From positions 1 to 41,552 of the forward strand of contig JAMOVQ010000091.1 of assembly GCA_027067575.1 (NCBI GenBank): a stretch of 41,552 nucleotides of DNA, given 5' to 3'. Origin of the DNA: Thermoanaerobaculia bacterium (GTDB taxonomy: Bacteria; Acidobacteriota; Thermoanaerobaculia; Thermoanaerobaculales; Sulfomarinibacteraceae). The notes under the pieces are model-generated. The model ran no database searches and was not told where the DNA came from. It was given only the letters and a program-made list of their open reading frames with translations. Below are positions 13,982-32,535 of the stretch, one piece after another (the first letter of the stretch is position 1; each line of letters begins with the position of its first letter). Position numbers and translations under genes: made by a program.

Positions 13982-14014
13982 CGTGAAACGGGAAACGTGA
14001 AACGTGAAACGAAA
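13982..14014. repeat. GTTTCAC heptad repeat, copy B (inverted)
   Basis: Written on the + strand this is CGTGAAACGGGAAACGTGAA and onward, the reverse complement of copy A at 463-495 with three differences in 33 bases. It lies 21 bases after the carB stop and is followed by a CCCGCCCG tract that mirrors the GGGCGGG beside copy A. Confidence 0.75.
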
Positions 14015-14096
14015 GACCCGCCCGCCCGGCCGGTGAGGACGTGAGGGAGTCAGGGCGTCAGGAAGTCGGGGTGTGGGAACGGCCGGTGACGGAGCA

Positions 14097-14140
14097 GGGG
14101 AGCTGGGGAGCTGGGGAGCAGGGGAGCAGGGGCGCAGGGG
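14097..14140. repeat. Phased G-tract tandem repeat (G-quadruplex type)
   Basis: Six GGGG runs start exactly every 8 bases (14097, 14105, 14113, 14121, 14129, 14137), separated by 4-base loops AGCT, AGCT, AGCA, AGCA, CGCA. This fits the general G4-forming pattern on the + strand. A degenerate TCAGG-like run (14049-14068) precedes it. The 346-base carB-to-dehydrogenase gap otherwise holds heptad repeat copy B and a lone TATGGT at 14231-14236 that could be a -10 box without a good -35. Confidence 0.75.
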
Positions 14141-14306
14141 TGCGGCGGCCGCCCAGCCGCCCGTGCGCAACCACGGATTCCGGGGATCGGGAGGATTCGG
14201 AGGGTTCCCGGCCAGGAGGTGTCCGGGTGGTATGGTGTGGGGCGCCGGGAGTCCGGCGGGGGCCTCCGGGCTCCGACAGCCGGGGGAGGCCAGGGGAGGG
14301 TCGATC

Positions 14307-15203
14307 ATGGAAATCCGGAGAGTTCTGGTGGTCGGGACGGGTACGCTCGGTTCGCAGATCGGCTTCCAGTGCGCCCTGCACGGTTTCGAGACCGTGATGT
14401 ACGACGTTGACGAGGGGGCGCTGGAGCGCTGCGAGGCGGCCCACCAGAAGATCGGGCGGGCGGTCCGGGCGGACCTCGGGACTCCCGGGGAGGCCATCGC
14501 CGCGGCCCACGTAAGGCTCTCCTACACCACCGACCTGGCCGGGGCGGCCGCGGAGGCCGACCTGGTCAGCGAGTCGGTGCCGGAGGATCCCGGGCTCAAG
14601 CGGAAGGTCTTCGCGCAGCTGGGGGAGCCGTGCCCGTCGCGGACCATCTTCACCACCAACAGCTCCACGCTCCTGCTCAGCGACATGGCGGAGGCCTCCG
14701 GCCGCCCGGAGCGCTTCCTGGCCCTCCACTTCGCCAACCAGATCTGGGTCAACAACGTGGCCGAGATCATGCGCCATCCCGGCACCGACCCCGAGGTCTT
14801 CGAGCAGGTGGTCCGCTTCGCCCGGGAGATCGGGATGGTGCCCATCCGCCTCGAGAAGGAGCAGAACGGCTACGTGCTCAACACGCTCCTCGTGCCGCTG
14901 CTGGGCGCCGCCCTGAGCCTGGTGGTCAACGGGGTCGCCTCCCACGAGGACGTGGACCGGACCTGGATGATCGCCATGAAGGTCCCCATGGGTCCCTTCG
15001 GCACCCTGGACCTGGTGGGGCTCCAGACCGCCCACGACATCACCGCCTACTGGGCCTCCCGGAGCGGCGACGAGCAGTCCCGCCGCAACGCCGCCTTCCT
15101 CAAGGAGCACTACGTGGACCGCGGCAGGCTGGGGGTGGCCACCGGCGAGGGCTTCTACACCTACCCGGACCCGGCCTTCCGCCGGCCCGGTTTCCTGGAC
15201 TGA
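14307..15203 (+). CDS. 3-hydroxyacyl-CoA dehydrogenase family protein
   Basis: The 298-residue product has an N-terminal NAD-binding Rossmann fold (GTGTLGSQIG, residues 10-19; acidic D33 region MYDVDEG) and the C-terminal helical 3HCDH domain. The active-site stretch is FLALHFANQIWVNNVAEIM in place of the commoner HFFNP form, as in a distinct branch of short 3-hydroxyacyl-CoA dehydrogenases. It ends with the usual GVATGEGFYTYPDP. It would oxidise 3-hydroxyacyl-CoA (perhaps 3-hydroxybutyryl-CoA) to the 3-keto form. The ATG at 14307 follows GGGGAGGG. It is a single gene and no thiolase or crotonase is nearby, so substrate and pathway are open. Confidence 0.88.
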   Translation: MEIRRVLVVGTGTLGSQIGFQCALHGFETVMYDVDEGALERCEAAHQKIGRAVRADLGTPGEAIAAAHVRLSYTTDLAGAAAEADLVSESVPEDPGLKRKVFAQLGEPCPSRTIFTTNSSTLLLSDMAEASGRPERFLALHFANQIWVNNVAEIMRHPGTDPEVFEQVVRFAREIGMVPIRLEKEQNGYVLNTLLVPLLGAALSLVVNGVASHEDVDRTWMIAMKVPMGPFGTLDLVGLQTAHDITAYWASRSGDEQSRRNAAFLKEHYVDRGRLGVATGEGFYTYPDPAFRRPGFLD

Positions 15204-15216
15204 GCCGGTCCGCCGG

Positions 15217-15477
15217 TCAGAGCGACGGAAGTGCCGGCCCCCGGGCTCCCCCGCCCGGCCCGGTCACGGTCCTCACCTCGAATTCCGGCGGATCGTCCAT
15301 GGTCCTCTTCACCGTGCACATCTTCGCCGCCCGCTCCAGCGCCGCGTGGTACTTCTCGGGGAAGCCCTCCGGCACCCGGATCTCGAGCTCGATCCGGGCG
15401 AGCCTCCCCTCCGGGCTCCGGTGCCACCGCTGCACGAGCGAGAGCCCCTCGTGGGGGATTCCCCGTCGCTTTGACTG
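15217..15477 (-). pseudogene. Truncated OsmC-family protein (C-terminal half only)
   Basis: Reading leftward from about 15477, the frame gives HEGLSLVQRWHRSPEG, then LARIELEIRVPEGFP, YHAALERAAKMCTVKRTM and a stop at 15217. This is the C-terminal half of an OsmC-type peroxiredoxin, including the second redox cysteine in MCTVKR. Intact proteins are about 140 residues and carry an earlier catalytic cysteine, which is missing. In frame upstream there is a TGA at 15478-15480, and beyond it the G+C falls sharply. The gene seems to have been cut by insertion of, or deletion into, the island that begins here. Confidence 0.75.
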
Positions 15478-15486
15478 TCAACGCGA

Positions 15487-15523
15487 ATCCGGTCTCGCCC
15501 AATTCATGGCCATCCGGTCTCGC
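15487..15523. repeat. Direct repeat ATCCGGTCTCGC x2
   Basis: Two perfect 12-base copies (15487-15498 and 15512-15523) start 25 bases apart. They lie in the 85-base gap between the broken osmC end and the SIR2-like gene, at the composition boundary. They could be insertion debris or a protein-binding site. Confidence 0.5.
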
Positions 15524-15562
15524 GCGCTCTGTCCGACGTGGGTACCGGGTCCCTCGGGTATT

Positions 15563-17944
15563 TCACGAAAGGGACTTCCTATTTGGGTGGCGATCGACGT
15601 TCGACCCTCGGGATTGTGGCCCGGAACGTTCCTTGACCGAAGCCAGCTGGTGCCGAAGTACCTCCAAAGAGTGGCCGGATGCATGTTGAGAGGCAGCGAG
15701 CCTCTGAAGTGCGGAGCTGTCAATTCCAACTTCTCGTGCGGCATCAAGTAGCCCCTGGGTATGGAGAGGCATCTCAAGCGTTGCCGCGCTAGCCACCGCA
15801 CGTTCGATGAGCCTCTTGGCAAGTTCCCGTGAAACCCGGGAATGGGACAACAGGGCGGCGAGGCAGGCGATCTGGATCGTGGTCTCATGATCAGCCTCTC
15901 TCAGGCACATGAGGTGCGCGAGAATCGCCTCGGACGTGGAAATGCACGAGTTCAAGGTTAGCCCATCTTTGAGTAACCGCCAGTATTGGCGAAACCCGCC
16001 TCTGGGCACGATGAGTCTCTCTTTGATTTCGTTCGCGATGCCCAATGCGGCAGAGGAATCCCCGAGGCGGAGGAGACACCATCCCTTCAGAGCTTGGGTT
16101 CCCGCCGCCCGCTCCACGAAACCGCTTGCAGAGTAGATAGCGGCGGCAGAGTCAAGGAACGGGAGAGCCGAGCTCCACGACCCTAGCAGCGACCTCAACC
16201 AGCCTCGATTGAACAGAGCATTGGCTTCAGCTTCTCGTGCCCCTCGTTCCTGTGCAAGTTCGTAACTTCTCAGGAAGGCTTGGTCGGCACCGGTGACGTC
16301 ACCGCTCGCGAGCCGGCACAGCCCTAGGTTGCCACTGGCGTTCATGACTACCTCGAGATCCTCCAGGATCTCGGCCTCCTCAATCGCCTTGTTGTTCTCT
16401 CGCTCGGCATCAGCGATGTGGCCGGCGAGACGGTAGCCTTCGGCGAGGTTGACGCGCAGCACCAGTCGGCGCCGCGGTATCCCGATTTCACCGATGATTT
16501 GTTGGATCGATTCGAGCACTCGCACGCTTTCTTCCGGATTATCCGCACGCATCAACACAATTGCACGTCTCACTGCGGATTCTGCGCGGAGTGTCGGCAG
16601 ATTCAAACTTGCTGCGAGTTCTTCGGCGTGGCTAAGAACTCTGAGCGATTCGTCAAACCTTTCTCCTCCGTGGTAGGCCAAGACGAGACCGTAGGTCAGC
16701 GCTGAGTGAACCTCGAGGAGCGGATCCCCGGTAGACCGTGACCGTTCGAAGGCCCGGCGCGCGATGTCATGCGCGAGGTCCAACTCCCCCACCCTCCACG
16801 CCAAGTTGGCTGCTGCGTCCTCAGCTTGCGCTGCGACCTGGATTGGAGTCCCGGTTTCCTGTGCCAGCGCAGTGAGGCCGTGAACAGCAGTCGACACCTG
16901 ATTTGGGTTGCCTCGCTGTGCCCGTGCTGCGGCCTCTCCTTCGCGTTCGAGTATCCAAAGCCTCTCAATAGGCTGATGCGCTGTGATTCGCCGGTGAACA
17001 GTGGGGATCGTAAGTCGTCCCAGCTCATCTCCCCTCTCAAGGCAGAGAGTAGCTACCGCCTGGGCGAGAAGCGGTGATGGCTCGCACTCGACCCACCGGC
17101 CCACCGTCCTGCGCCATACGGCGGTGTCGTGTGAGCCGGTCCAGGGAGGTAAACCGAGAGCGTTTTCTAGGGCGGCGGGAGACCCCTCGCCGAGGTAAAT
17201 GCTGTGTCTGGCTACTGCCAGTGCTTCCCTCACGGACCGTTCGGCTTCTCCATAGCCCACCCATGCGACCCGTGACGAAGCAGCGACGAGCTGCCGAATC
17301 AGAGGGCGAAGGTCAGGATCTCGGACCGCATACCCGATGAAAACCAGCGGTTTCCCCTGAACCATAGCTACAAGCGAATCGCCGCATCGGGGGGGGAACT
17401 CTCGTAGGATCTGGTCGATAGTGAGGCCCAGGTCAGCGTCCCGGTCTGCCACCGAGGCATCACCATGCAACTTGATCACTAGGTGTTCATCCCGTGGAGG
17501 CGCCGCCAGAGTGGCGATGGTGGCTCGATCGGTGACCACCCGTGCAATCCCGCCCCACTGTGCAATGGCGAGTTCGATTTGGTCGTCGAAATTCGTCGTC
17601 AACCAGATCCGCGGGGTCTTGCTGACAGAAGCCAGGATTCTGTGTGTGGGCCCCGGTCCGAAGCCTTTCATCGTGGCAAGAATCGAGCTTGTAGCACTGG
17701 GGAGATAGCGGGAGATAATGTCCGTCACAACCTCGAATCGTGGCCACGAGGCCGTCGCTGAGGAATCCAATTCCGAGAATACACTCTCAAGGCCGATCCG
17801 GGAAAAGAGGCTCTTGACAAGGTATCGGGCCGCTTCATCGCCCAAAGGGAGGTCACCTCCGTAGCAGGCGCCTGCACCGAGAAAGTAGATCGTGTCAGGG
17901 TCACGGATGATCTCTGCAAGTTGTTGTGATTTGATCGTGGTCAT
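15563..17944 (-). CDS. SIR2-like domain protein with TPR-type C-terminal half
   Basis: The product is 793 residues from the ATG at 17944. A TTG at 17989 would add 15 residues, and neither start has a strong ribosome binding site. The N-terminal ~260 residues form a SIR2-like NAD-binding domain: YFLGAGACYGGDLP (20-33), LTTNFD with N118, KLHGD with H160, FIGYAVRDPD (202-211). The Asn and His that are catalytic in SIR2 NADases are both present. The rest (about 300-700) is alpha-helical with TPR-like units (ANLAWRVGELDLAHDIARRA, EANALFNRGWLRSLLGSWSS). SIR2 domains fused to sensor or solenoid regions are common in anti-phage systems that deplete NAD. I infer this role from the architecture and from the neighbouring hsdM/NYN scar. 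G+C is clearly lower than the flanking genes, which suggests transfer. Confidence 0.8.
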   Translation of the reverse strand: MTTIKSQQLAEIIRDPDTIYFLGAGACYGGDLPLGDEAARYLVKSLFSRIGLESVFSELDSSATASWPRFEVVTDIISRYLPSATSSILATMKGFGPGPTHRILASVSKTPRIWLTTNFDDQIELAIAQWGGIARVVTDRATIATLAAPPRDEHLVIKLHGDASVADRDADLGLTIDQILREFPPRCGDSLVAMVQGKPLVFIGYAVRDPDLRPLIRQLVAASSRVAWVGYGEAERSVREALAVARHSIYLGEGSPAALENALGLPPWTGSHDTAVWRRTVGRWVECEPSPLLAQAVATLCLERGDELGRLTIPTVHRRITAHQPIERLWILEREGEAAARAQRGNPNQVSTAVHGLTALAQETGTPIQVAAQAEDAAANLAWRVGELDLAHDIARRAFERSRSTGDPLLEVHSALTYGLVLAYHGGERFDESLRVLSHAEELAASLNLPTLRAESAVRRAIVLMRADNPEESVRVLESIQQIIGEIGIPRRRLVLRVNLAEGYRLAGHIADAERENNKAIEEAEILEDLEVVMNASGNLGLCRLASGDVTGADQAFLRSYELAQERGAREAEANALFNRGWLRSLLGSWSSALPFLDSAAAIYSASGFVERAAGTQALKGWCLLRLGDSSAALGIANEIKERLIVPRGGFRQYWRLLKDGLTLNSCISTSEAILAHLMCLREADHETTIQIACLAALLSHSRVSRELAKRLIERAVASAATLEMPLHTQGLLDAAREVGIDSSALQRLAASQHASGHSLEVLRHQLASVKERSGPQSRGSNVDRHPNRKSLS

Positions 17945-18003
17945 ATCAAACGATCCAGCGGGACTGATGTGGGGGTTGCACTTGGGCAACCCCTATTGGG
18001 ATT

Positions 18004-18408
18004 CTATTGTCCAACCTGCTCTCCCAAGTCCTCTTCAATAGCGGCGAACTGTTCCAGGGCGGCCTGGAGGTCCTCCACGATCTCGGCGGCGAGGATCCCC
18101 GGTTCCGGGAGGTTCGCCGAGTCCTCCAGGGACTCGTCCCGGAGCCAGAAGATGTCCAGGTTGGCCTTGTCGCGGGCCACGAGCTCGTCGTAGCTGAAGC
18201 ACTTGAAGCGCTCGCTCTCCTCACGCTCGTGGCGGTTGGCCGGGTTGTAGCACCGGACGAAGTCCTCGAGGTCGGCCCGGGTCAGCGGGTTCTTCTTCAG
18301 TGTGAAGTGCTTGTTGGTCCGGAGGTCGTAGATCCAGAGCTTTTCCGTCCAGGGCTTCTCGGCGGCGGGCCGGCGGTCGAAGAAGAGGACGTTGGCCTTC
18401 AGTTCCCG
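18004..18408 (-). pseudogene. Type I restriction methyltransferase HsdM, C-terminal fragment
   Basis: About 134 codons remain, from RELKANVLFFDRRPAAEKPW to the stop at 18004. The segment contains KLWIYDLRTNKHFTLKKNPL, LEDFVRCYNPANRHERE, KANLDIFWLRDESLEDSANL and a closing coiled region. This is the distal part of HsdM, the modification subunit of a type I restriction system. The catalytic N-6 methylase domain (NPPY motif) and any hsdS and hsdR are absent, so it is non-functional. It has normal high G+C, unlike the SIR2 gene that begins 60 bases after its stop. Confidence 0.85.
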
Positions 18409-18437
18409 TCGATGAAGAGGATCGCCCTGTCAGCCAT
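18399..18437 (-). pseudogene. First 12 codons of a NYN-domain protein
   Basis: ATG at 18437 opens MADRAILFIDGN and then stops at TGA (18401-18399). That opening is the typical first beta strand of NYN (PIN-like RNase) proteins, including the metal-binding Asp of FIDGN, where N and a W or Y usually follow. The reading then enters hsdM in a different frame. A ribosome binding site GAGG lies upstream. It is a deletion scar. A genuine 12-residue peptide is unlikely. Confidence 0.6.
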
Positions 18438-18445
18438 GGGACCTC

Positions 18446-18484
18446 AAGAAAAACCCCGGAGTGTGGCCACGCCAGACTCCGGGG
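18446..18484 (-). terminator. Intrinsic terminator/attenuator hairpin
   Basis: Reading the - strand, CCCCGGAGT (18484-18476) pairs with ACTCCGGGG (18462-18454). The 13-base loop contains the palindrome GTGGCCAC, and TTTTTCTT (18453-18446) follows. The 9-bp perfect stem plus U-tract is a textbook intrinsic terminator. It lies downstream of a predicted promoter and only 9 bases before the NYN start codon. Confidence 0.75.
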
Positions 18485-18523
18485 GGATGAACACCCTATC
18501 CCCGTGGGGCATCGGGCCATGAC

Positions 18524-18553
18524 ACCATACTGCCAGAGACCTGACCGTGTCAA
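18524..18553 (-). promoter_or_regulatory. Predicted sigma-70 promoter
   Basis: On the - strand a perfect TTGACA (18553-18548) is followed after 18 bases by TATGGT (18529-18524). Transcription would begin near 18517 and meet the terminator hairpin about 35 bases later. It would serve either a ~70-base RNA or, by read-through, the NYN/hsdM scar and the SIR2-like gene. Confidence 0.6.
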
Positions 18554-18880
18554 GCTGGGTCGGCTCCCGCGGCCGAAGGGTCGTTGACGGAAGACTACCC
18601 GGCTCCTGTACGTGATCATGGGTTCTCTCCGGCATTCGATGTGTTGAACAGCGCTCGTACAACAAACCCAGAGAAAGTTCAGCCACACCGAACCTTCTCC
18701 AGCATCGTTGTCATCCGTGGTGTCCCCCCAACCAGTTGAGGATCACTCATCTGAAGGGAGGTTATCCCCCCTTGTCCCGCCCCAGGCCCACCGACACCCC
18801 CCTGGGACCCATGTGGGAATCTGGGTGTCCCCCAACTGCGGGATCCTGGGTGTCCCTTGACAGGGACGTTCGCAAACGGC
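18554..18880. other. Intergenic region without a recognisable gene
   Basis: No frame here resembles a known protein, and composition is mixed. It contains the GGG...CTGGGTGTCCC direct repeat. A TTGACA (18857) with TAAAAT (18882) 19 bases on lies on the + strand, but no + strand gene follows. Confidence 0.4.
18815..18856. repeat. 17-base direct repeat, two copies
   Basis: GGGAATCTGGGTGTCCC (18815-18831) and GGGATCCTGGGTGTCCC (18840-18856) match at 15 of 17 positions with a 25-base period. Function is unknown. Confidence 0.5.
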
Positions 18881-18929
18881 ATAAAATCCCCCGTGGGAAC
18901 CCCACACGAGTGCAGGGTTCCAACGGGGG
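18881..18929 (-). terminator. Terminator of the secreted-protein gene
   Basis: The arms CCCCCGTGGGAACCC (18888-18902) and GGGTTCCAACGGGGG (18915-18929) pair at 14 of 15 positions around a 12-base loop. On the - strand the hairpin is followed by ATTTTAT (18887-18881). It lies 21 bases beyond the stop of the gene ending at 18951 and closes the two-gene secreted unit. Confidence 0.75.
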
Positions 18930-18950
18930 TGGTTTCCCGAGCGCCAGAGA

Positions 18951-19904
18951 TCAGCGATCCGCAGCGTCCAACCGCTGGAGCTCCGAACGGTTCACGAGAA
19001 CGAGTGGACCGTCGGGTCCGGGGTACAGCCACTGATCGGTCGGGAACGGGCGCTCCTCCAGGACGGTACCGTCCGCCCAGCGAACCTCGAGCAGCCGCGC
19101 GGCTTTTCCCGTTCCATCCACCGCCACCAGCCAGACGCTCTCTTCACCGGGGGCCCAGCCATGGACCCGGACGTTACCGGTCGGGGCCGGGACCACGATC
19201 CGCTCCCGAGGCGTTCCGTCCGGCGAGAACCGGAGGAGTGCCCGGTCGAACGGGTCGAAGACCTCGATCGCTGTCGGTGAGACATAGATCAGGAGCTGGT
19301 TCTCGATCCCGGCGATGGAGCTTCCGGCCTTGAGGGGACGTCGGGGCACGATGTCGTGGACGGGCTCGAGGTCCTTGCTGAAGATGGAACAGGCCAGTAC
19401 CGCCTCGTAGCCGCCCTGTCCATCGGTGTCGAGCCCCTCCCACCAGCCGACGAGTCGGCCGTCGGAAAGTGTGTCCAACGACAGGACCATCGCCACCTTC
19501 AGCAGCGCCTTCCGGACGAGTTTCCCCTTCCGGTCGAAAAAGAGGAGTGCGCCGTAGCGACGACGGCCGTTCTTCTCGAGTCGCAAGCCGCTCACGACGA
19601 ACCCCGATGGTGTCACTCCGGCGGCCCGCGGCGCGCCGAGGCGGCTGTTCAGAAACGATGTGTCGAGCACGATGTCGGCGCCCCCCGAGAGGGGATGCGC
19701 CACGACCTGTTCCGAATCCAGGGTCCAGGAGAGAATCCAACCGTGGGAGGCCCAGAGTTCCCCCGGTTGGTCGGGGTGAGCCGACCAGAGAAGACCCTGT
19801 GGGGGACTCATTGGCTCATTCGCTGATATTGTAAGACCAGGAGCCAGTATTGAGACAATGAGAACGCCTAGAATCATCGAAGATCGTCCGGGGAAGGATT
19901 TCAT
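18951..19904 (-). CDS. Secreted protein, propeller-like, unknown function
   Basis: The 317-residue product starts at the ATG at 19904 behind AAGGAGAG. A signal peptide covers about 1-28 (MKSFPGRSSMILGVLIVSIL, then APGLTISA), with likely cleavage before NEP. The mature part is beta-rich with repeated elements such as LLFFDRKGKLVRKALL, LLRFSPDGTPRERIVV and GWAPGEESVWLVAVDG, which resembles a 6-bladed propeller of the NHL/YncE kind. There is no catalytic motif. It lies 32 bases downstream of the cysteine-rich peptide gene and is followed by a terminator, so the two probably form an operon. I do not recognise a named family. Confidence 0.7.
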   Translation of the reverse strand: MKSFPGRSSMILGVLIVSILAPGLTISANEPMSPPQGLLWSAHPDQPGELWASHGWILSWTLDSEQVVAHPLSGGADIVLDTSFLNSRLGAPRAAGVTPSGFVVSGLRLEKNGRRRYGALLFFDRKGKLVRKALLKVAMVLSLDTLSDGRLVGWWEGLDTDGQGGYEAVLACSIFSKDLEPVHDIVPRRPLKAGSSIAGIENQLLIYVSPTAIEVFDPFDRALLRFSPDGTPRERIVVPAPTGNVRVHGWAPGEESVWLVAVDGTGKAARLLEVRWADGTVLEERPFPTDQWLYPGPDGPLVLVNRSELQRLDAADR

Positions 19905-19936
19905 CTTGACTCTCCTTTCGCTGCCTTCCTTGATCG

Positions 19937-20299
19937 TCACGGAGCACCACCGCACTGGTCGATGGCGCAGGAGTCAACGGTCCGCCCGATCCCATACCGA
20001 TCCACACAGATTGTCGGATCGGTATACTGGGTACATGCTGTGCAACATAAGATACAATCATCACAATAACAGCTCTGGCAATCGGGTCCCATGGAAAGCT
20101 GCCGCCCTTCCGTCATTACACAATATCCACCGCACATCACGTCGTCCCAGTCCGGATCACCTGGAGTTATGACGACAATAAATCCATCGCCGCCAGCACG
20201 AGCCGTCGTTACATTGACTGCCTGAAAGAGGAGTATCACAACCACAGCAATATACCAAGGAAACCTTCTCATTTGACTCTTTAACCCGAACCCTCTCAT
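19937..20299 (-). CDS. Secreted cysteine-rich peptide (12 Cys)
   Basis: The 120-residue precursor starts at the ATG at 20299 behind a perfect GGAGGTG ribosome binding site. Its signal peptide (about 1-35) ends TTARA before GGDGF. The mature ~85 residues contain 12 cysteines at 56, 60, 74, 77, 79, 82, 85, 86, 89, 98, 111 and 116, densest in CQSCYCDDCILCCTAC. The even number and export signal point to six disulfides, and metal binding by the dense cluster is an alternative. The N-terminus MRGFGLK is the same as that of the large LVIVD protein at 32535. A second ATG nine codons later (MRRFPW) is a possible original start. No family is recognised. Confidence 0.7.
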   Translation of the reverse strand: MRGFGLKSQMRRFPWYIAVVVILLFQAVNVTTARAGGDGFIVVITPGDPDWDDVMCGGYCVMTEGRQLSMGPDCQSCYCDDCILCCTACTQYTDPTICVDRYGIGRTVDSCAIDQCGGAP

Positions 20300-20339
20300 T
20301 TTCACCTCCAGTGTTCGTGTAAATGGGAAAGCACTGACC

Positions 20340-20364
20340 ATTGGGAACCCAGGAGTTTCCCAAT
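20340..20364 (-). other. Leader hairpin of the cysteine-rich peptide gene
   Basis: ATTGGGAA (20340-20347) and TTCCCAAT (20357-20364) form a perfect 8-bp stem with a 9-base loop, 41 bases upstream of the start codon. There is no U-tract, so it is not a terminator. It could be a 5'-UTR structure or a dyad operator. Confidence 0.4.
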
Positions 20365-20565
20365 AGTAACCACGGGGTCGGTTTTCGATCTCACGAAGGA
20401 TCCTGCTGGGTATCACCTCCTCTCGGGGAGGCACTCCGTCCTCCATCGCGACAGGGTGATCGGTCTTGAGGTTCAGGCAGCTAGAAAGCGAATGGATCGG
20501 AGAATCGCCGTACTGGGAGGATAACAAGATCGTTTGTTTCATCACAGATTACCATTACCACAGAT

Positions 20566-20579
20566 GGGGGGGGGGGGGG
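20566..20579. repeat. Poly-G tract, 14 bases
   Basis: Fourteen consecutive G residues on the + strand interrupt otherwise mixed sequence, 267 bases upstream of the cysteine-rich peptide start. The rest of 20365-20898 holds no gene I can support. A TATATG on the - strand near 20690 is the only promoter-like element. Confidence 0.85.
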
Positions 20580-20898
20580 TTAAGAAAAGGGACGCTACTT
20601 GTCTATGAACCCCACCCTTCCTCACACCCTTCCGCAAGATTCGGCCCCTCTCAGCCCCCCTCCGCAAAGGACCCGCTCCTGCCCCACTCATATACCCGCC
20701 AAACCGGGTCCCCAAGGCGCTCCCGGGACGCACTCTCCCCGGAAATCCGCTCTACTTCCCCCGCTGGGCCTATTGTTCGACCTGGCTCAGCCGGCCTTCG
20801 ACACCTGGAGTCACGCGGATGGCGCAAGTGTCCTGATGTGAGTTGGTTGCGGAGGGTGTCAGATTGGCGTGGTGTCTCCAGGTCTTGCGGTGTGGTGG

Positions 20899-21244
20899 TG
20901 ATTGTTTGGATTCGAGGTGGACTGGCGATGTCGAGGCTTTTGAGGATGTTCCGTTGTGCGGGTGTGGTCTCCGTCAGGATCTCGAGGTGTCCGGAGGGCC
21001 CAAACAATTCGACACGATGCAGGGTCTCCAGCTCGTCGCGGATCGCCTCGTCGTGCTCCACGAGGAAGTCCATCGCCCGGTACAGCTGATGGACCTTGAC
21101 CTCCTCCAGACCCTCGACATGGCACCGACGGCCCACCCACCGTTCGATGGCGTGCTTCGACCGCGGATCCAGCGCGCGGTTCGCCACCATCGCAAACAGG
21201 AGCCGTTCCACGTCGATCTCGTACTCCTTCTCTTGCTGTTCCAA
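20899..21244 (-). mobile_element. IS1634-type transposase remnant with internal deletion
   Basis: From about 21244 the frame reads RLEQQEKEYEIDVERLLFAM, ANRALDPRSKHAIERWV, HVEGLEEVKVHQLYRAMDFL and EHDEAI, which is part of the N-terminal portion of IS1634-family transposases. At about 21040 it passes directly into TLHRVELFGPSGHLEILTE, TPAQRNILKSLDI and SPPRI, which look like the C-terminal end. The whole catalytic DDE core (about 300-400 residues) and the first ~70 residues are missing. It is inactive. I could not identify terminal inverted repeats or a target duplication. Confidence 0.7.
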
Positions 21245-21391
21245 GCGAACGGTCCCGATCCTGAAGGCCGGTGGTTCTCTGGAGCGCCGACCTGGACGTC
21301 GCCGCGCCCGCACCTGGGTTCGTGGGGTATGGGGTGGCGGGGGCTGGCCGGGAGACGAGAACGGCTCGACGGCCTCTTCCCTCCGCGGGGC

Positions 21392-21420
21392 TTGACAACG
21401 GGGGTCCGGTGTCGTAGCTT
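21392..21420 (+). promoter_or_regulatory. Promoter of the tetR-efflux operon
   Basis: TTGACA (21392-21397) and TAGCTT (21415-21420) are 17 bases apart, with transcription expected to start near 21427. This is one of the best promoter matches in the window. Confidence 0.65.
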
Positions 21421-21428
21421 TCCGGAAG

Positions 21429-21446
21429 TTAGTGAGTGTTTACTGA
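21429..21446 (+). promoter_or_regulatory. Putative TetR operator
   Basis: TTAGTGAGTGTTTACTGA is an imperfect palindrome (outer TnAGT/ACTnA arms) immediately after the predicted start of transcription and 16 bases before the tetR ATG. Its form resembles AcrR/TetR-family sites, so autorepression of the operon is likely. Confidence 0.5.
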
Positions 21447-21462
21447 CCTCCGGGAGGACACC

Positions 21463-22104
21463 ATGGAAACGGGTCGAGACACCGCCGGAACCGCGCTCCG
21501 GCCGACGCCGCGGCAGGAGGAGATCCTGGACCACGCCATGGCGCTGGTCCGGCGGGGAGGGCTCGCCGCGGTCACGACCAAGCGGCTGGCGGAGAGCGTT
21601 GGGTTCACCGAGGCCGCGCTCTACCGCCACTTCCCGTCGAAGCGGGCGCTGATCCTCGGCATGATCGACCGCCTGGAGGCGATGCTCCTCGGCCCGATCC
21701 GTGAGATCGCGGGCGACGAGACGCTGGCGGTCGGCGAACGGCTCGAACGGATCGTCCGGCACCACACGGCCATCGTCCGCGAGCACCGGAGCCTTCCGAT
21801 CCTCCTGCTCGCCGAGGCGTCGGTCTCCGAGGACGAGGCCCTGCTGGCCCGGATGACCGCCATGTTCTCTGCCTACCTGGGGATCGTCGAGGAGCTGGTC
21901 CGGAAGGGGCAGGACCGCGGCGAGCTGGTGGCGGACCCGGAACCCGACTGCCTGGCCCTGCTCCTGATCGGCGCCCCCGCAGCCCTGGCGATCCGGCACC
22001 GCCTGCTGCCCGACGGGGAGGCGGAGCAGCGGTTCTCCGACTCGTTGATCCCGTTCCTGCTCCGGTCGATCCGGAGCGAACGGACCGTTGGGAGGTCCCG
22101 ATGA
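21463..22104 (+). CDS. TetR family transcriptional regulator
   Basis: The 213-residue product has an N-terminal helix-turn-helix (about 20-66: ILDHAMALVRRGGLAAVTTK, AESVGFTEAALYRHFPSKRA) and an all-helical ligand-binding C-terminal domain (DETLAVGERLERIVRHHTAI and onward). The ATG at 21463 follows GGGAGGACACC. An in-frame start 27 bases upstream lies inside the operator and is unlikely. It is the first gene of a four-gene unit in which every junction overlaps by 4 bases, and it is expected to repress that unit until an effector, probably an efflux substrate, binds. Confidence 0.93.
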   Translation: METGRDTAGTALRPTPRQEEILDHAMALVRRGGLAAVTTKRLAESVGFTEAALYRHFPSKRALILGMIDRLEAMLLGPIREIAGDETLAVGERLERIVRHHTAIVREHRSLPILLLAEASVSEDEALLARMTAMFSAYLGIVEELVRKGQDRGELVADPEPDCLALLLIGAPAALAIRHRLLPDGEAEQRFSDSLIPFLLRSIRSERTVGRSR

Positions 22105-27864: not shown

Positions 27865-30800
27865 TCACGGATCCCGGGAGCCGATGACCACGGAAACATC
27901 CCCGGCGCCGATGCGGCCGTCCACGGTGAGGTCGTAGCAGGGGTCCCCGAGGTGGGCGCCGCCGACGGCATCCCTGGGCAGGACGCCGTCGGTGTCGTAG
28001 ATCTCGGCCAGGAGGTCGGCGACGTCGAGGCCGTCCACGGCCCCGTCGTGGTTGACGTCCGGACCGACGCGGACCAGGCGGGACGTGGTGGCCGAGCCGC
28101 TGGCGCCGGACACCGTCAGCGTGACGGTCCAGGTCCCGTAGCCGGGGAACCGGTGGACGGGGTCCGATTCCGTGGACGTCCCACCGTCGCCGAAGCTCCA
28201 GCTCCAGCCGTCCGGGCCGTACCGCGTCCTGTCGTTGAAGGCGACCTCCAGGCCACAGCTGGACCAGACGAACCCGGGTTCCGGTGCCCGGCACGTCAGG
28301 GTGTAGGCCTTCAGGGGACCCTCGTCCTGGACGAGAAGGGCCGAGCCGAGCAGGGCGCCATGCGCGAACCAGTCGTAGTATTCCTGCCAGACCACCCGGG
28401 GATCGGCGGGATCGGCGACATCGATCCGGAAGAAACCCATCGAGCCCGCCGCGTAGAGGTTCGTCCCGTCGATGCCGAGGATGGAGCGAAGATCCAGGTC
28501 GAACGGCAACGTTCCACCCAGGAGACGCGGGTTCGCGGGGTCGGAGACGTCGATGATCGAGAGCCCCTCCGTCCCGGCCTGCACCGTCAACAGCAGGTCG
28601 CCGGCGACGGCGAGGTCGGCTGGCCTGCCAATGTCGATGGAGCCGGCGGTGTACGGGTTGGAGGGATCCTGGACATCGATGATCTCGATACCGCCGTTCC
28701 CCCCGACGAAGACCAGATCCCCCGCCACCGCCACGGCGGAGGGGGCGGACGGGGAGCTCGTGCTCGAGACCAGCGATGGGTCGAACTCGTCCTCGATATC
28801 GACGATCTCGATCCCGCCGCCCTCCACGGCGACGAAGGCGAGATCGCCCGACACGGCCACGTCCACGGCCGGGGATGCCGTCTGGAACCGTCCGGCGAGG
28901 AACGGATTGGCCGGATCGAGAAGGTTCACGATCTGAAGGCCCTGCTCGGAGACGGCGACGGAGGCGTAATCGCCGCTGGCGTCGATCGCCGTCCCCATGG
29001 CGGGCAGGTCCACGGAGCCCAGGAAGCGGAGGTCGAACGGGTCGGCGGCGTCCACGGTCTTCAACGAGGTCCGGTCCGCGACACAGGCGAGGGTGCCGGT
29101 CACCGCGACGCCGGCGGCGCGTCCCCGCGCGTCCCACGTCCCGGTCACCCACGGTGCCGACGGATCGGAGACGTCGGCCATCTGCAGGCCGACCTCGGGG
29201 TGCGTGACCACCGCGACGCGGCCCTCCACGGCGACCCCGCCGGCCCTGCCCCCGTTCGCGGGGATGGTCCCACGGAGCACGGGGTTCCGCCGGTCGGACA
29301 CGTCGAAAATCTCCACCCCGTGAGAGCCCGCGGCGGAGTACAGCAGGCCGCCCACGACGGCGAGCCTGAAGGAGTGGTGTGCGGGGATCCTGGCCAGACT
29401 GCGGGGACGGGTGGGATCCGAGACGTCGAGTACGCGGAGCCAGTCGTTGTCCTGGCCGACGAAGACGGTGTCTCCCGAGATCGCGACGGCCCACGCCTCG
29501 CCCCAGAGCGGGAACGACGCCGCGTGCGCGATGTTCGCCGGGTCGGAGACGTCGAAGATCTCCAGCTGATCGTGCCAGGTGGCGAGAGCGACGAGCCCGC
29601 CCGATGCGGCGATCGTACTGTCGACGGAGGACTCCACCGGAACGCTGCCGAGGAGGCGCGGGTCCGCGGGATCGGAGACGTCGATCGCCAGGAGGACGCT
29701 CTCGGAGTCGTCGAGGTGCATCGTCACCAGGTACGCCGTGGTTCCCGACAGGCCGGCGCGGTAGGCCCAGCCGAGCCCGTGCAGGCGCCCGACGGTTCGG
29801 GGCGCCGCCGGCGCCGAGACGTCGACGACGGCCAGACCGTTGAAGCCGTCGGCCACGAAGAGCAGGCCGCCGCCGTCCGAGGCGAACTCCACCACGCCCT
29901 CGTCCGACTCCCAGAGGCCGATCGGGACGGGGTGGAACGGATCGGTGGCGTCCCACGTCCCGATCCCCCCGATCCGCGCCGCGCAGACGATGCCGCGCCA
30001 GAGCGACACGGTGTACGGATAGACCATGTTCCCGTCGAGGAAACAGGTATCCGCCGGGGCCGGGCAGCGCCGGGCGACTCCGGTGGTCCGCCCGCAGACC
30101 GGGCCCCCGAGCGGACCCTCGCCGCCGCACGAGCCCAGGGCGGCGACCCGGTAGCAGTATTCCGTGTCCGGACTGAGGCCCGCGTCCGTGAAACTGGAGA
30201 CGCCGTCGGGGACGTCGGCGATCCGGGCACTCCCGCGATGGACCGCCGCGCCGTGGGACCCCGGGGGCGGGGTCCACGTGATCCGGATCGCGTCGTCGCC
30301 GAGCACAGCCGCATGCAGTCCGGAGGGCGCATCGACGCCCCCGGCGGCGCAGGCGATCTCCACCTCGGCCGCCCCGTTGCACTGCGCGCTCCCATCAGGG
30401 GAATCGACGCGGATGGAGAGCTCCGCCGTGCCCGCTCCGGAACCCGTGGTCAGGGTGGCGGTGTAGCGGCCATCGCCGAGATCGCTGAAGCCGGAGAGCG
30501 AGCCCAGGGTGGTCGTTCCGCTGACAGCGAGTCCCGGCATGGCCCGGAAGACGAGGTCCTCGACGCGGACCGTCACCGTTCCGGTCTGGCCTCCGGTCAG
30601 CATCGGGGAAGCCGGGACCGACACCGTCACCCTGTCGCACGTGGGGCAGGCCGTAGCCAGCAGGTCGAGCGTGGAGTCCTCGGCCACGACGATGGCGCCC
30701 GTGACCGGGTCGGCGGCCACACCGTACGCGATGCCGTAGATGCTCGTGCCGAGACGAAACACGGGCTCACCGGGCGTGGAGAGGTCCCAGACCTCGAGGC

Positions 30801-32535
30801 TCGGGAAGGTGGCGTACCTGCCGGACGCCATGCCGACCACGGCGAGGTCGTCGAGGAAGGTCACGGACGTGGCCTCACCCGGAACGGTCGCCTCGAAGGC
30901 GGGGTGGGCGGGATCGTCGAGGTCGAGGATCTCCGACACCTCCCCGGACTCACGAACCCAGAGGGTACGCCCCGGAGAGGCCGCGAGGCCGAGGGCGGGG
31001 TTCGCGGTGGCGGAGTGCCCCACCACGTACGGCGCACCGGTCCCGGAGGTCTCGACCACCTGGACCCCTTCGTTCCAGTCCGCGACGGCCACCAGGGTTC
31101 CGCCGAGGGTCGCGATGTCGAGTGCAAACCCCGTCGTGTCCAGCAGACCGGTCCGGACCGGGTGGGCGGGATCGGAGACGTCCACGAGCTCGATCCCCGA
31201 GCTCCCCTCGGCGACGACGGCCAGATCCCCGACGAGGGCCACGGCGTAGGCGGGCCCCTCCGTTGTGAACTCCGAGAAGAAACCGATGTTGGTGGGATCC
31301 GCGACGGAGAGAAGCTGAAGCCCCTCCTCGGCCGCAGCGACCAGGGCCGTCGTCCCGTGGAGGGCCACGTCCAGCGCCACGCCGGGGACGTCGTGGTACC
31401 CGACCCACGAGGGGTTCGCCGGGTCCGAGATGTCGACGGTGAGAAACCCCAGGGTGCCGTCGGCCACGCAGGCGAAGTCCCCGGGCTCCACGGCCACGGA
31501 GAACGCCTGCCCGGCGACCATGTCGTACGCCCCGATCTCCTGGGGCGCCCTCGGATCGTTCACGTCGACGACCCGCAGGCCCTGCTCGGCGCCGGCGACG
31601 AACCCGAGGCCACCCGAGACCGCCACGCCCCACGCGCCTCCCGGGGTGGCCACCGAACCCATCACGGTGGGTGCGTCCGGGTCGCCGACGGCCAGGATCG
31701 CAAGGCCCCCATCCCCGTCGGCGACGTAGCCGAACGCACCGCCCGGCAGGATGACCCGGGACGCCGGACCTCCCGTGCCCACGGCGCCTCGCAGTACCGG
31801 GCTGGCGGGATCGGAGAGGTCCACCACCTGCACACCACCGGTGGTCAGCGCGACCCAGACGAAGTCCCCGGAGACGGCCACGTCCACGGCCGTGCCCGCC
31901 AGGGGGACCGATGCGAGCCAGGACGGGGTGGTGGGATCGGAGACGTCGTAGACCGCCAGACCATCCCCGCCGTTGGCGATCACGGCGATCCCGTTCCCCG
32001 CGAGCGCGACGTCCAGCGCGGTGCCACAGGTGTATTCGAGGGCCCGGACCCAGAAGTTCTGTGCCGAGACGTCGACGACGGCCAGTCCGTTCCCGCCGTC
32101 GGCCACGAACGCCCAGTCCCCGGAGACGGCTACGTCCATCGCCGTTCCCAACGTGGAGCTGCTCCACACCGTGTTGGTGATGTGCGGGTTCGTCGGGTCG
32201 GAGATGTCGATCCGCATGAGGCCGGCGTCACCGTCGGCGACCCAGGCCACGGTTCCTTCGACCGTGACGGAGATCGCCGGGGCGGGAAGCTGGACCTCGG
32301 CGATCCGGACGGGGTCCACCGGATTCGAGATGTCGTAGATCGTGACGCCATAGCGATCGGCCGCCACGACGTACTGATCTCTCACGGCCACGTCGTTGAT
32401 CCCCTGGTTGTACGGACCGAAACCCTCGGCGCCCCTCTGGGAGAGGCACCCCTGCGCCGCCGCCGTGCCGGGGGACACCACCGCCGCGAGCGACAGCACG
32501 ATGACGCCGACCCTCTTCAACCCGAATCCTCGCAT
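27865..32535 (-). CDS. Giant secreted LVIVD-repeat protein with Ig, FN3, PKD and dockerin-like domains
   Basis: The 1556-residue product has a signal peptide (1-27, cleavage after TAAA-Q). Roughly a dozen ~46-residue LVIVD-type repeats of the form VAVSGDWAFVADGGNGLAVV/DVSDPANP lie at about 30-625, followed by an invasin-like Ig domain (about 632-735), an FN3 domain (about 737-815) and a second array of about a dozen LVIVD repeats (about 830-1415). A PKD domain with WSFGDGGTSTESDPVHRF (about 1418-1490) and a dockerin-like pair of Ca-binding loops (DVNHDGAVDGLDVADLL, about 1494 on) close it. The repeats should fold as propeller-like beta structures. A surface or extracellular binding role is likely and no enzyme motif is seen. 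A strong GGAGGGAGGT ribosome binding site precedes the ATG. Confidence 0.9.
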   Translation of the reverse strand: MRGFGLKRVGVIVLSLAAVVSPGTAAAQGCLSQRGAEGFGPYNQGINDVAVRDQYVVAADRYGVTIYDISNPVDPVRIAEVQLPAPAISVTVEGTVAWVADGDAGLMRIDISDPTNPHITNTVWSSSTLGTAMDVAVSGDWAFVADGGNGLAVVDVSAQNFWVRALEYTCGTALDVALAGNGIAVIANGGDGLAVYDVSDPTTPSWLASVPLAGTAVDVAVSGDFVWVALTTGGVQVVDLSDPASPVLRGAVGTGGPASRVILPGGAFGYVADGDGGLAILAVGDPDAPTVMGSVATPGGAWGVAVSGGLGFVAGAEQGLRVVDVNDPRAPQEIGAYDMVAGQAFSVAVEPGDFACVADGTLGFLTVDISDPANPSWVGYHDVPGVALDVALHGTTALVAAAEEGLQLLSVADPTNIGFFSEFTTEGPAYAVALVGDLAVVAEGSSGIELVDVSDPAHPVRTGLLDTTGFALDIATLGGTLVAVADWNEGVQVVETSGTGAPYVVGHSATANPALGLAASPGRTLWVRESGEVSEILDLDDPAHPAFEATVPGEATSVTFLDDLAVVGMASGRYATFPSLEVWDLSTPGEPVFRLGTSIYGIAYGVAADPVTGAIVVAEDSTLDLLATACPTCDRVTVSVPASPMLTGGQTGTVTVRVEDLVFRAMPGLAVSGTTTLGSLSGFSDLGDGRYTATLTTGSGAGTAELSIRVDSPDGSAQCNGAAEVEIACAAGGVDAPSGLHAAVLGDDAIRITWTPPPGSHGAAVHRGSARIADVPDGVSSFTDAGLSPDTEYCYRVAALGSCGGEGPLGGPVCGRTTGVARRCPAPADTCFLDGNMVYPYTVSLWRGIVCAARIGGIGTWDATDPFHPVPIGLWESDEGVVEFASDGGGLLFVADGFNGLAVVDVSAPAAPRTVGRLHGLGWAYRAGLSGTTAYLVTMHLDDSESVLLAIDVSDPADPRLLGSVPVESSVDSTIAASGGLVALATWHDQLEIFDVSDPANIAHAASFPLWGEAWAVAISGDTVFVGQDNDWLRVLDVSDPTRPRSLARIPAHHSFRLAVVGGLLYSAAGSHGVEIFDVSDRRNPVLRGTIPANGGRAGGVAVEGRVAVVTHPEVGLQMADVSDPSAPWVTGTWDARGRAAGVAVTGTLACVADRTSLKTVDAADPFDLRFLGSVDLPAMGTAIDASGDYASVAVSEQGLQIVNLLDPANPFLAGRFQTASPAVDVAVSGDLAFVAVEGGGIEIVDIEDEFDPSLVSSTSSPSAPSAVAVAGDLVFVGGNGGIEIIDVQDPSNPYTAGSIDIGRPADLAVAGDLLLTVQAGTEGLSIIDVSDPANPRLLGGTLPFDLDLRSILGIDGTNLYAAGSMGFFRIDVADPADPRVVWQEYYDWFAHGALLGSALLVQDEGPLKAYTLTCRAPEPGFVWSSCGLEVAFNDRTRYGPDGWSWSFGDGGTSTESDPVHRFPGYGTWTVTLTVSGASGSATTSRLVRVGPDVNHDGAVDGLDVADLLAEIYDTDGVLPRDAVGGAHLGDPCYDLTVDGRIGAGDVSVVIGSRDP

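Follow-up and report, generated by a model that had tools for sequence, protein, structure and literature searches.

We consider it fairly likely that the SIR2-TPR gene described here encodes a self-contained, DSR2-like immune NADase which is gated by an array of tetratricopeptide repeats (TPR) and was recently transferred into its present genome. The protein carries an immune-type SIR2 domain with an intact active site fused to a TPR arm, the gene has foreign codon use, and neither an NTPase family in the protein (Pfam) nor a partner among the neighbouring proteins scanned was detectable. An initial annotation had put the gene forward as a candidate NAD-depleting defence effector. Given the immune-branch SIR2 domain, the intact active site, the TPR fusion and the likeness to DSR2, a stand-alone NAD-depleting effector is also the most likely reading of our results, whereas the argument drawn in that annotation from a defence-island setting did not hold up.

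Domain architecture and active site

Coordinates refer to the window, that is, the whole 41.5 kb stretch of DNA that was analysed.

15217..15475, minus strand: C-terminal remnant of OsmC, marking where the foreign DNA ends on the left (Pfam, end of homology)
15563..17944, minus strand: SIR2-TPR gene, 793 aa (ORF, translation, Pfam SIR2_2 and TPR_12, AF2 model)
15617..17248, minus strand: alpha-solenoid, residues ~233-775 (Pfam TPR_12, AF2 helical hairpins, Foldseek)
17249..17944, minus strand: SIR2_2 catalytic domain, residues ~1-232 (Pfam, invariant columns, PDB profile matches)
18007..18402, minus strand: HsdM C-terminal remnant (translation, 90-92% identity to HsdM of relatives)
18403..18438, minus strand: start of a NYN-like ORF (MADRAILFIDGN); its fusion to the hsdM remnant is out of frame (translation)

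The SIR2-TPR ORF opens with ATG; an alternative TTG located 45 bp upstream would extend the protein to 808 aa. Pfam places SIR2_2 (PF13289) at residues 115-227 (E 7.9e-13; 49.2 bits against a curated cut-off of 24.5) and TPR_12 (PF13424) in four stretches (E 1e-12, well over the curated cut-off), in agreement with the SIR2-like domain and the long TPR-like solenoid that had been described from the translation. The recognisable TPRs lie at residues ~380-630, and we propose that the solenoid serves as a sensor or oligomerisation arm. The NADase-linked residues and the GAGA and GYAVRDPD motifs named in the initial annotation are all present: GAGA at 23-26, TTNFD at 116-120 (N118), KLHGD at 158-162 (H160) and GYAVRDPD at 204-211, with G23/G25 of the GAG at 23-25, N118, H160, GY at 204-205 and D209 retained. 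The key positions N118, D120, K158, H160, G161, G204 and D209 show no variation among 27 diverse SIR2 proteins or among 16/16 members of the clade to which the protein belongs. A Pfam scan in which E values up to 10 were admitted revealed no NTPase family. Pfam detected neither GreA/B nor PIN, and Pfam and PADLOC domain searches revealed neither SLOG/STALD nor APAZ.

The SIR2 domain belongs to the immune branch

A profile built from the nearest SIR2 domains was compared with the PDB and matched KomC (3e-19), DSR2 (2e-18), SIR2-APAZ (8e-18) and ThsA (3e-15), while deacetylases followed at 8e-7 or weaker. Entries 8in8/8jkz bear the title 'Sir2 superfamily protein', which we take to denote SIR2-APAZ. 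KomC was also the best single-sequence SIR2 match. Since immune-branch entries far outscore deacetylases with the SIR2-clade profiles, a reading as a protein deacetylase was rejected. N118 and H160 are equivalent to N133 and H171 of DSR2, whose alanine mutants have lost NAD+ cleavage (PMC11087589). Judged from its sequence, the assignment of the domain to the NADase type is well supported. The PADLOC search proposed in the initial annotation did match SIR2 effectors of defence systems, the best being those of short Argonaute, ThsA and PDC-S65, but all matches were confined to the SIR2 part.

Predicted structure and comparison with known systems

The AF2 model is of moderate confidence as a whole (pLDDT 66.7, pTM 0.37). 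The Rossmann core reaches a pLDDT of ~80-93 and the helical repeats at residues 370-620 mostly ~70-91; the linker and the C-terminus are weak. The top Foldseek matches were the TPR proteins LGN/Pins (E 2.6e-9), followed by a long series of DSR2 entries. In the structural comparison that had been suggested at the outset, DSR2, which combines SIR2, a middle domain and a horseshoe solenoid in one chain, was matched over both SIR2 and solenoid (~919 columns, E from 7e-7), with a TM-score of only ~0.2. Among the matches listed, DSR2 is the best whole-chain relative that contains a SIR2 domain, and no other SIR2-plus-repeat structure occurs among the best 50 matches listed. The low TM-scores probably stem from the flexing of long solenoids and from model uncertainty; in view of them, the match supports the notion that the protein works like DSR2 rather than membership in DSR2.

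Like DSR2, the SIR2-TPR protein is a single polypeptide with an N-terminal SIR2 domain of the NADase type and the same Asn/His pair (N133/H171 in DSR2; PMC11087589), and it has a predicted C-terminal alpha-solenoid, the part that in DSR2 binds the trigger. It differs in that DSR2 is longer (~1005 aa), that no TPR array is described for the DSR2 solenoid, and that full-length sequence similarity was not detected: DSR2 was absent from the results of a phmmer search of the full protein against the PDB, and only SIR2-domain profiles reach it. The phage tail tube protein is established as a trigger for DSR2 only. Repeat arms act as sensors in DSR2 (PMC11087589) and in Avs5, which has TPRs (PMC12931631). 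Avs5 resembles the present protein in joining a SIR2_2 NADase effector to C-terminal repeats, possibly including TPRs (PMC12931631), but requires a central nSTAND3 ATPase, whereas the Pfam scan described above detected none here. ThsA (Thoeris) and KomC (Kongming) carry a SIR2 domain from the same immune branch; however, both use partner genes and nucleotide signals, and the SIR2-TPR protein has no SLOG/STALD domain. ThsA differs further in its C-terminus, which here consists of TPRs, and the PADLOC match to ThsA is limited to the SIR2 part, just as the matches to Argonaute systems (SIR2-pAgo) fall in the SIR2 region.

No TIR gene (the ThsB partner) was present among the adjacent ORFs tested, and a scan of adjacent and larger proteins of the window revealed no HerA or APAZ/PIWI partner. 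Membership in Thoeris, Avs5, SIR2-HerA and SIR2-Argonaute systems was rejected because the defining partner or domain is absent. In line with the initial annotation, the gene stands alone, with no partner found among the neighbouring proteins scanned.

The pairing of SIR2_2 with TPRs has precedents. In a published SIR2_2 tree that includes the FAM118 sirtuins, some members are marked as carrying an additional TPR domain (PMC12700824), the same pairing as in the SIR2-TPR protein. Sirtuin-linked 'TPR-GreA/B-PIN' systems, which receive a one-line mention in PMC9503650, likewise tie a SIR2 effector to a TPR-containing system, but the present protein is devoid of GreA/B and PIN. In the literature searched, which was mostly non-subscription, we found no functional study of the SIR2-TPR architecture and no use of the name 'SIR2-TPR', and only the Avs5 paper joins a SIR2 domain, the tetratricopeptide repeat and defence. 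The architecture is already known to exist, and its function appears unstudied.

Proposed mechanism

We propose that SIR2-TPR could act as a self-contained immune-type NADase, a one-protein sensor-effector comparable to DSR2. The N-terminal SIR2 domain, with its N118/H160 active site, would be held inactive by the C-terminal TPR solenoid, probably in an oligomer. Upon binding of a trigger by the solenoid, most likely a phage protein or another invader protein, the assembly would rearrange and hydrolyse NAD+ to nicotinamide and ADP-ribose, and the cell would stop growing or die before multiplication of the invader. The gene itself is a recent horizontal arrival, on a compact stretch of ~2.5 kb between decayed hsdM and osmC. 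Gating of the NADase activity by the TPR arm appears likely, and anti-phage defence is a plausible role, with a chance somewhat better than even; we infer both the autoinhibition and the trigger.

Distribution and genomic context of relatives

Searches of plasmid and phage records and of related genomes yielded no close homologue, and neither did a search of viral contigs for close relatives. Distant SIR2 relatives were collected by profile search. According to Pfam, SIR2_2 and TPR occur together without an NTPase in six other proteins, from two Acidobacteriota (G056 and G210), Maribellus (Bacteroidota), a myxobacterial MAG (Myxococcota; gene L084, which runs off the end of its contig) and two Asgard archaeal MAGs, one of Lokiarchaeota and one of Sigynarchaeota. 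An additional SIR2+TPR protein, L028 (G123), has weaker TPRs. The combination occurs rarely, from bacteria to Asgard archaea.

A tree was calculated from the SIR2 domain alone; TPR columns were excluded, as these could group TPR proteins falsely. The SIR2-TPR protein, a long branch in this tree, falls into a 16-member clade (UFBoot 95 / SH-aLRT 75) that contains 7/8 of the TPR-fused proteins detected (Fisher p 1.2e-5, which is indicative only, since rows were recruited by similarity to this clade). The TPR label requires 7 changes on the tree and 97/500 shuffles are equally good, so that the TPR fusion is not established as having a single origin.

All six Pfam-confirmed SIR2+TPR proteins likewise stand alone, mostly beside housekeeping genes, and the other SIR2+TPR genes share no conserved neighbour. 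The neighbours of the strict members are largely housekeeping genes, presumably groEL/groES, ispG/dxr/rseP and gatB, names that we assigned by interpreting the sequences. A PADLOC tally of 62 proteins (the neighbours of four strict SIR2+TPR proteins, of L028 and of clade member L115, plus the window genes) returned only generic families (subtilase, HTH, mad1/2, DpdF, IetS). Defence genes do lie near some sister members of the clade whose C-termini are divergent: QatA in the case of L026, both an SLFN_AlbA_2 gene and an OLD-like nuclease in that of L093, a RAMP gene in that of L175, and methyltransferases in other sister members; in G391, a likely DNA methyltransferase gene precedes that of a sister SIR2 protein on the same strand. 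The context evidence for a defence role is mixed. The initial annotation had regarded homologues that are never enriched near defence genes as speaking against its reading; this is partly what was seen for the strict SIR2+TPR proteins but not for their same-clade sisters.

Two distant SIR2-TPR genes, one acidobacterial (L068:7321-11412) and one from the myxobacterial MAG (L084:1-5342), adjoin groES-groEL, one downstream on the same strand and one convergent; with two cases only, this adjacency may be due to chance. Clade member L026 is surrounded by QatA, a SIR2-looking gene without a Pfam match and an AAA/SMC-like gene (L070:1-1710, 15591-18001). Just upstream of clade member L176, an acidobacterial genome encodes a protein of the Tc toxin complex family, annotated as having a TcA C-terminal TcB-binding domain (L201:5077-8721).

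These neighbourhoods bear on an alternative in which the protein is a regulated NADase or ADP-ribosyltransferase that works outside defence, for instance in stress signalling or in programmed cell death linked to host proteins, and the TPR arm binds a cellular partner. The solitary position of most strict homologues among housekeeping genes, with those of G056 and the myxobacterial MAG adjoining groES-groEL, is consistent with it, as are the common binding of host proteins by TPRs and the processing of NAD by human FAM118 relatives, as described in PMC12700824. The same position beside housekeeping genes counts against an immune reading, as does the failure to find homologues in plasmid or phage records or, for close relatives, in viral contigs. 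However, the patchy, rare distribution and the foreign codon use described below fit defence genes better than housekeeping regulators, and sister proteins lie near Qat, methyltransferase, OLD and RAMP genes. We regard a non-defence role as rather unlikely.

If, as we prefer, the protein is a self-contained immune NADase, a broader view can be offered, although only tentatively and against the balance of probability: SIR2-TPR proteins may form an ancient, scattered class of ATPase-free one-gene immune receptors in bacteria and Asgard archaea, in which the TPR array directly gates the NADase. On this reading, guilt-by-association searches would largely miss the class because its genes lie outside defence islands, and it would indeed escape defence-island searches, since the strict SIR2+TPR genes sampled stand alone. 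A TPR array that switches an NADase without an ATPase or a partner would be among the simplest sensor-effector immune receptors, and such a simple receptor would lend itself to easy cloning, mutation and trigger screening. The Asgard archaeal proteins may bear on the origin of the eukaryotic NAD-consuming immune sirtuins (FAM118).

The locus: foreign DNA between broken genes

The host genome belongs to the Acidobacteriota. Identified flanking genes comprise those for a sigma-70 factor, carA, carB and a 3-hydroxyacyl-CoA dehydrogenase (3HCDH) to one side of the locus and a membrane-fusion/RND efflux pair to the other. Within the 41.5 kb window, the hsdM fragment is the sole defence-like sequence recognised, intact defence systems were not recognised, and the identified flanking genes are housekeeping; the 'typical defence-island setting' claimed initially is therefore not supported. 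The lower G+C content compared with the neighbours was confirmed, at ~60% for the SIR2-TPR gene versus 70-75%. Its GC3 of 0.634 compares with 0.986 for carB, 0.953 for 3HCDH and 0.95 for RND; host genes range from 0.907 to 0.986, and the hsdM remnant has a value of 0.909. This difference in codon composition (0.634 versus ~0.95) shows that the gene was acquired recently by horizontal transfer.

The foreign stretch that contains the SIR2-TPR gene measures only ~2.5 kb and lies between two broken genes, both of which had been noticed in the initial annotation. On one side, the OsmC remnant covers Pfam positions 48-99 only, just below the curated cut-off, and homology to a relative with intact-length osmC ends at 15475; relatives have intact-length osmC frames. 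On the other side, an HsdM C-terminus, 92% identical to that of a relative, is joined to the NYN-like start. The stop of the HsdM remnant is located ~60 nt upstream of the SIR2-TPR ATG on the same strand, and other hsdM copies are homologous at the DNA level as far as a point near 18023, at the last hsdM codons. Upstream of the NYN-like start, the adjoining sequence has a 93% identical counterpart on contig C182 of this genome, and in one relative the NYN-like gene adjoins an intact hsdM. The hsdM/NYN restriction region is a shuffled, decaying locus. Its pieces are found rearranged on two contigs of this genome (window 18007-18727 and L066 (G000:C182) 1-2130; 93-95% identical), and between them lie a dehydrogenase-like fragment and what appears to be a small toxin-antitoxin pair. 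In an empty-site comparison, relatives carried the dehydrogenase and osmC on separate contigs, without synteny. As the borders of the 2.5 kb stretch share neither repeats of at least 15 nt nor microhomology of at least 7 nt, transposon or cassette ends were rejected.

The junction with hsdM also concerns a second alternative, in which the effector needs a partner (e.g., restriction-linked or second-messenger-producing) that was lost or is encoded elsewhere, the hsdM remnant being its trace. The short same-strand distance from the hsdM stop to the SIR2-TPR ATG and the arrangement downstream of a likely DNA methyltransferase gene in G391 would agree with such a dependence. However, the foreign stretch begins at the last hsdM codons, so that the two genes seem to have come together by chance; no neighbour is conserved among the other SIR2+TPR genes, and SLOG/STALD, APAZ and NTPase domains were not found in the protein by the searches described above. 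We consider a missing partner improbable. That the gene is a decaying, non-functional islander, as the flanking osmC, hsdM and NYN fragments might suggest, is very improbable, given that the 793-aa frame is uninterrupted, all catalytic residues are kept and the codon-position base composition is even along the gene.

No Rfam match was obtained for window positions 14000-22000. In the interval that separates the hsdM stop from the SIR2-TPR start, there is a perfect short inverted repeat (GGGGTTGC..GCAACCCC; 17968-17990, minus strand), which is not followed by a T-run. The remainder of the low-GC stretch is made up of two low-GC orphan ORFs at 18951-20545 (minus strand), encoding proteins of 334 aa and 202 aa, the latter Cys-rich, without Pfam matches. 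At 27865-32535 (minus strand), the window encodes a 1556-aa protein with many LVIVD repeats and PKD domains.
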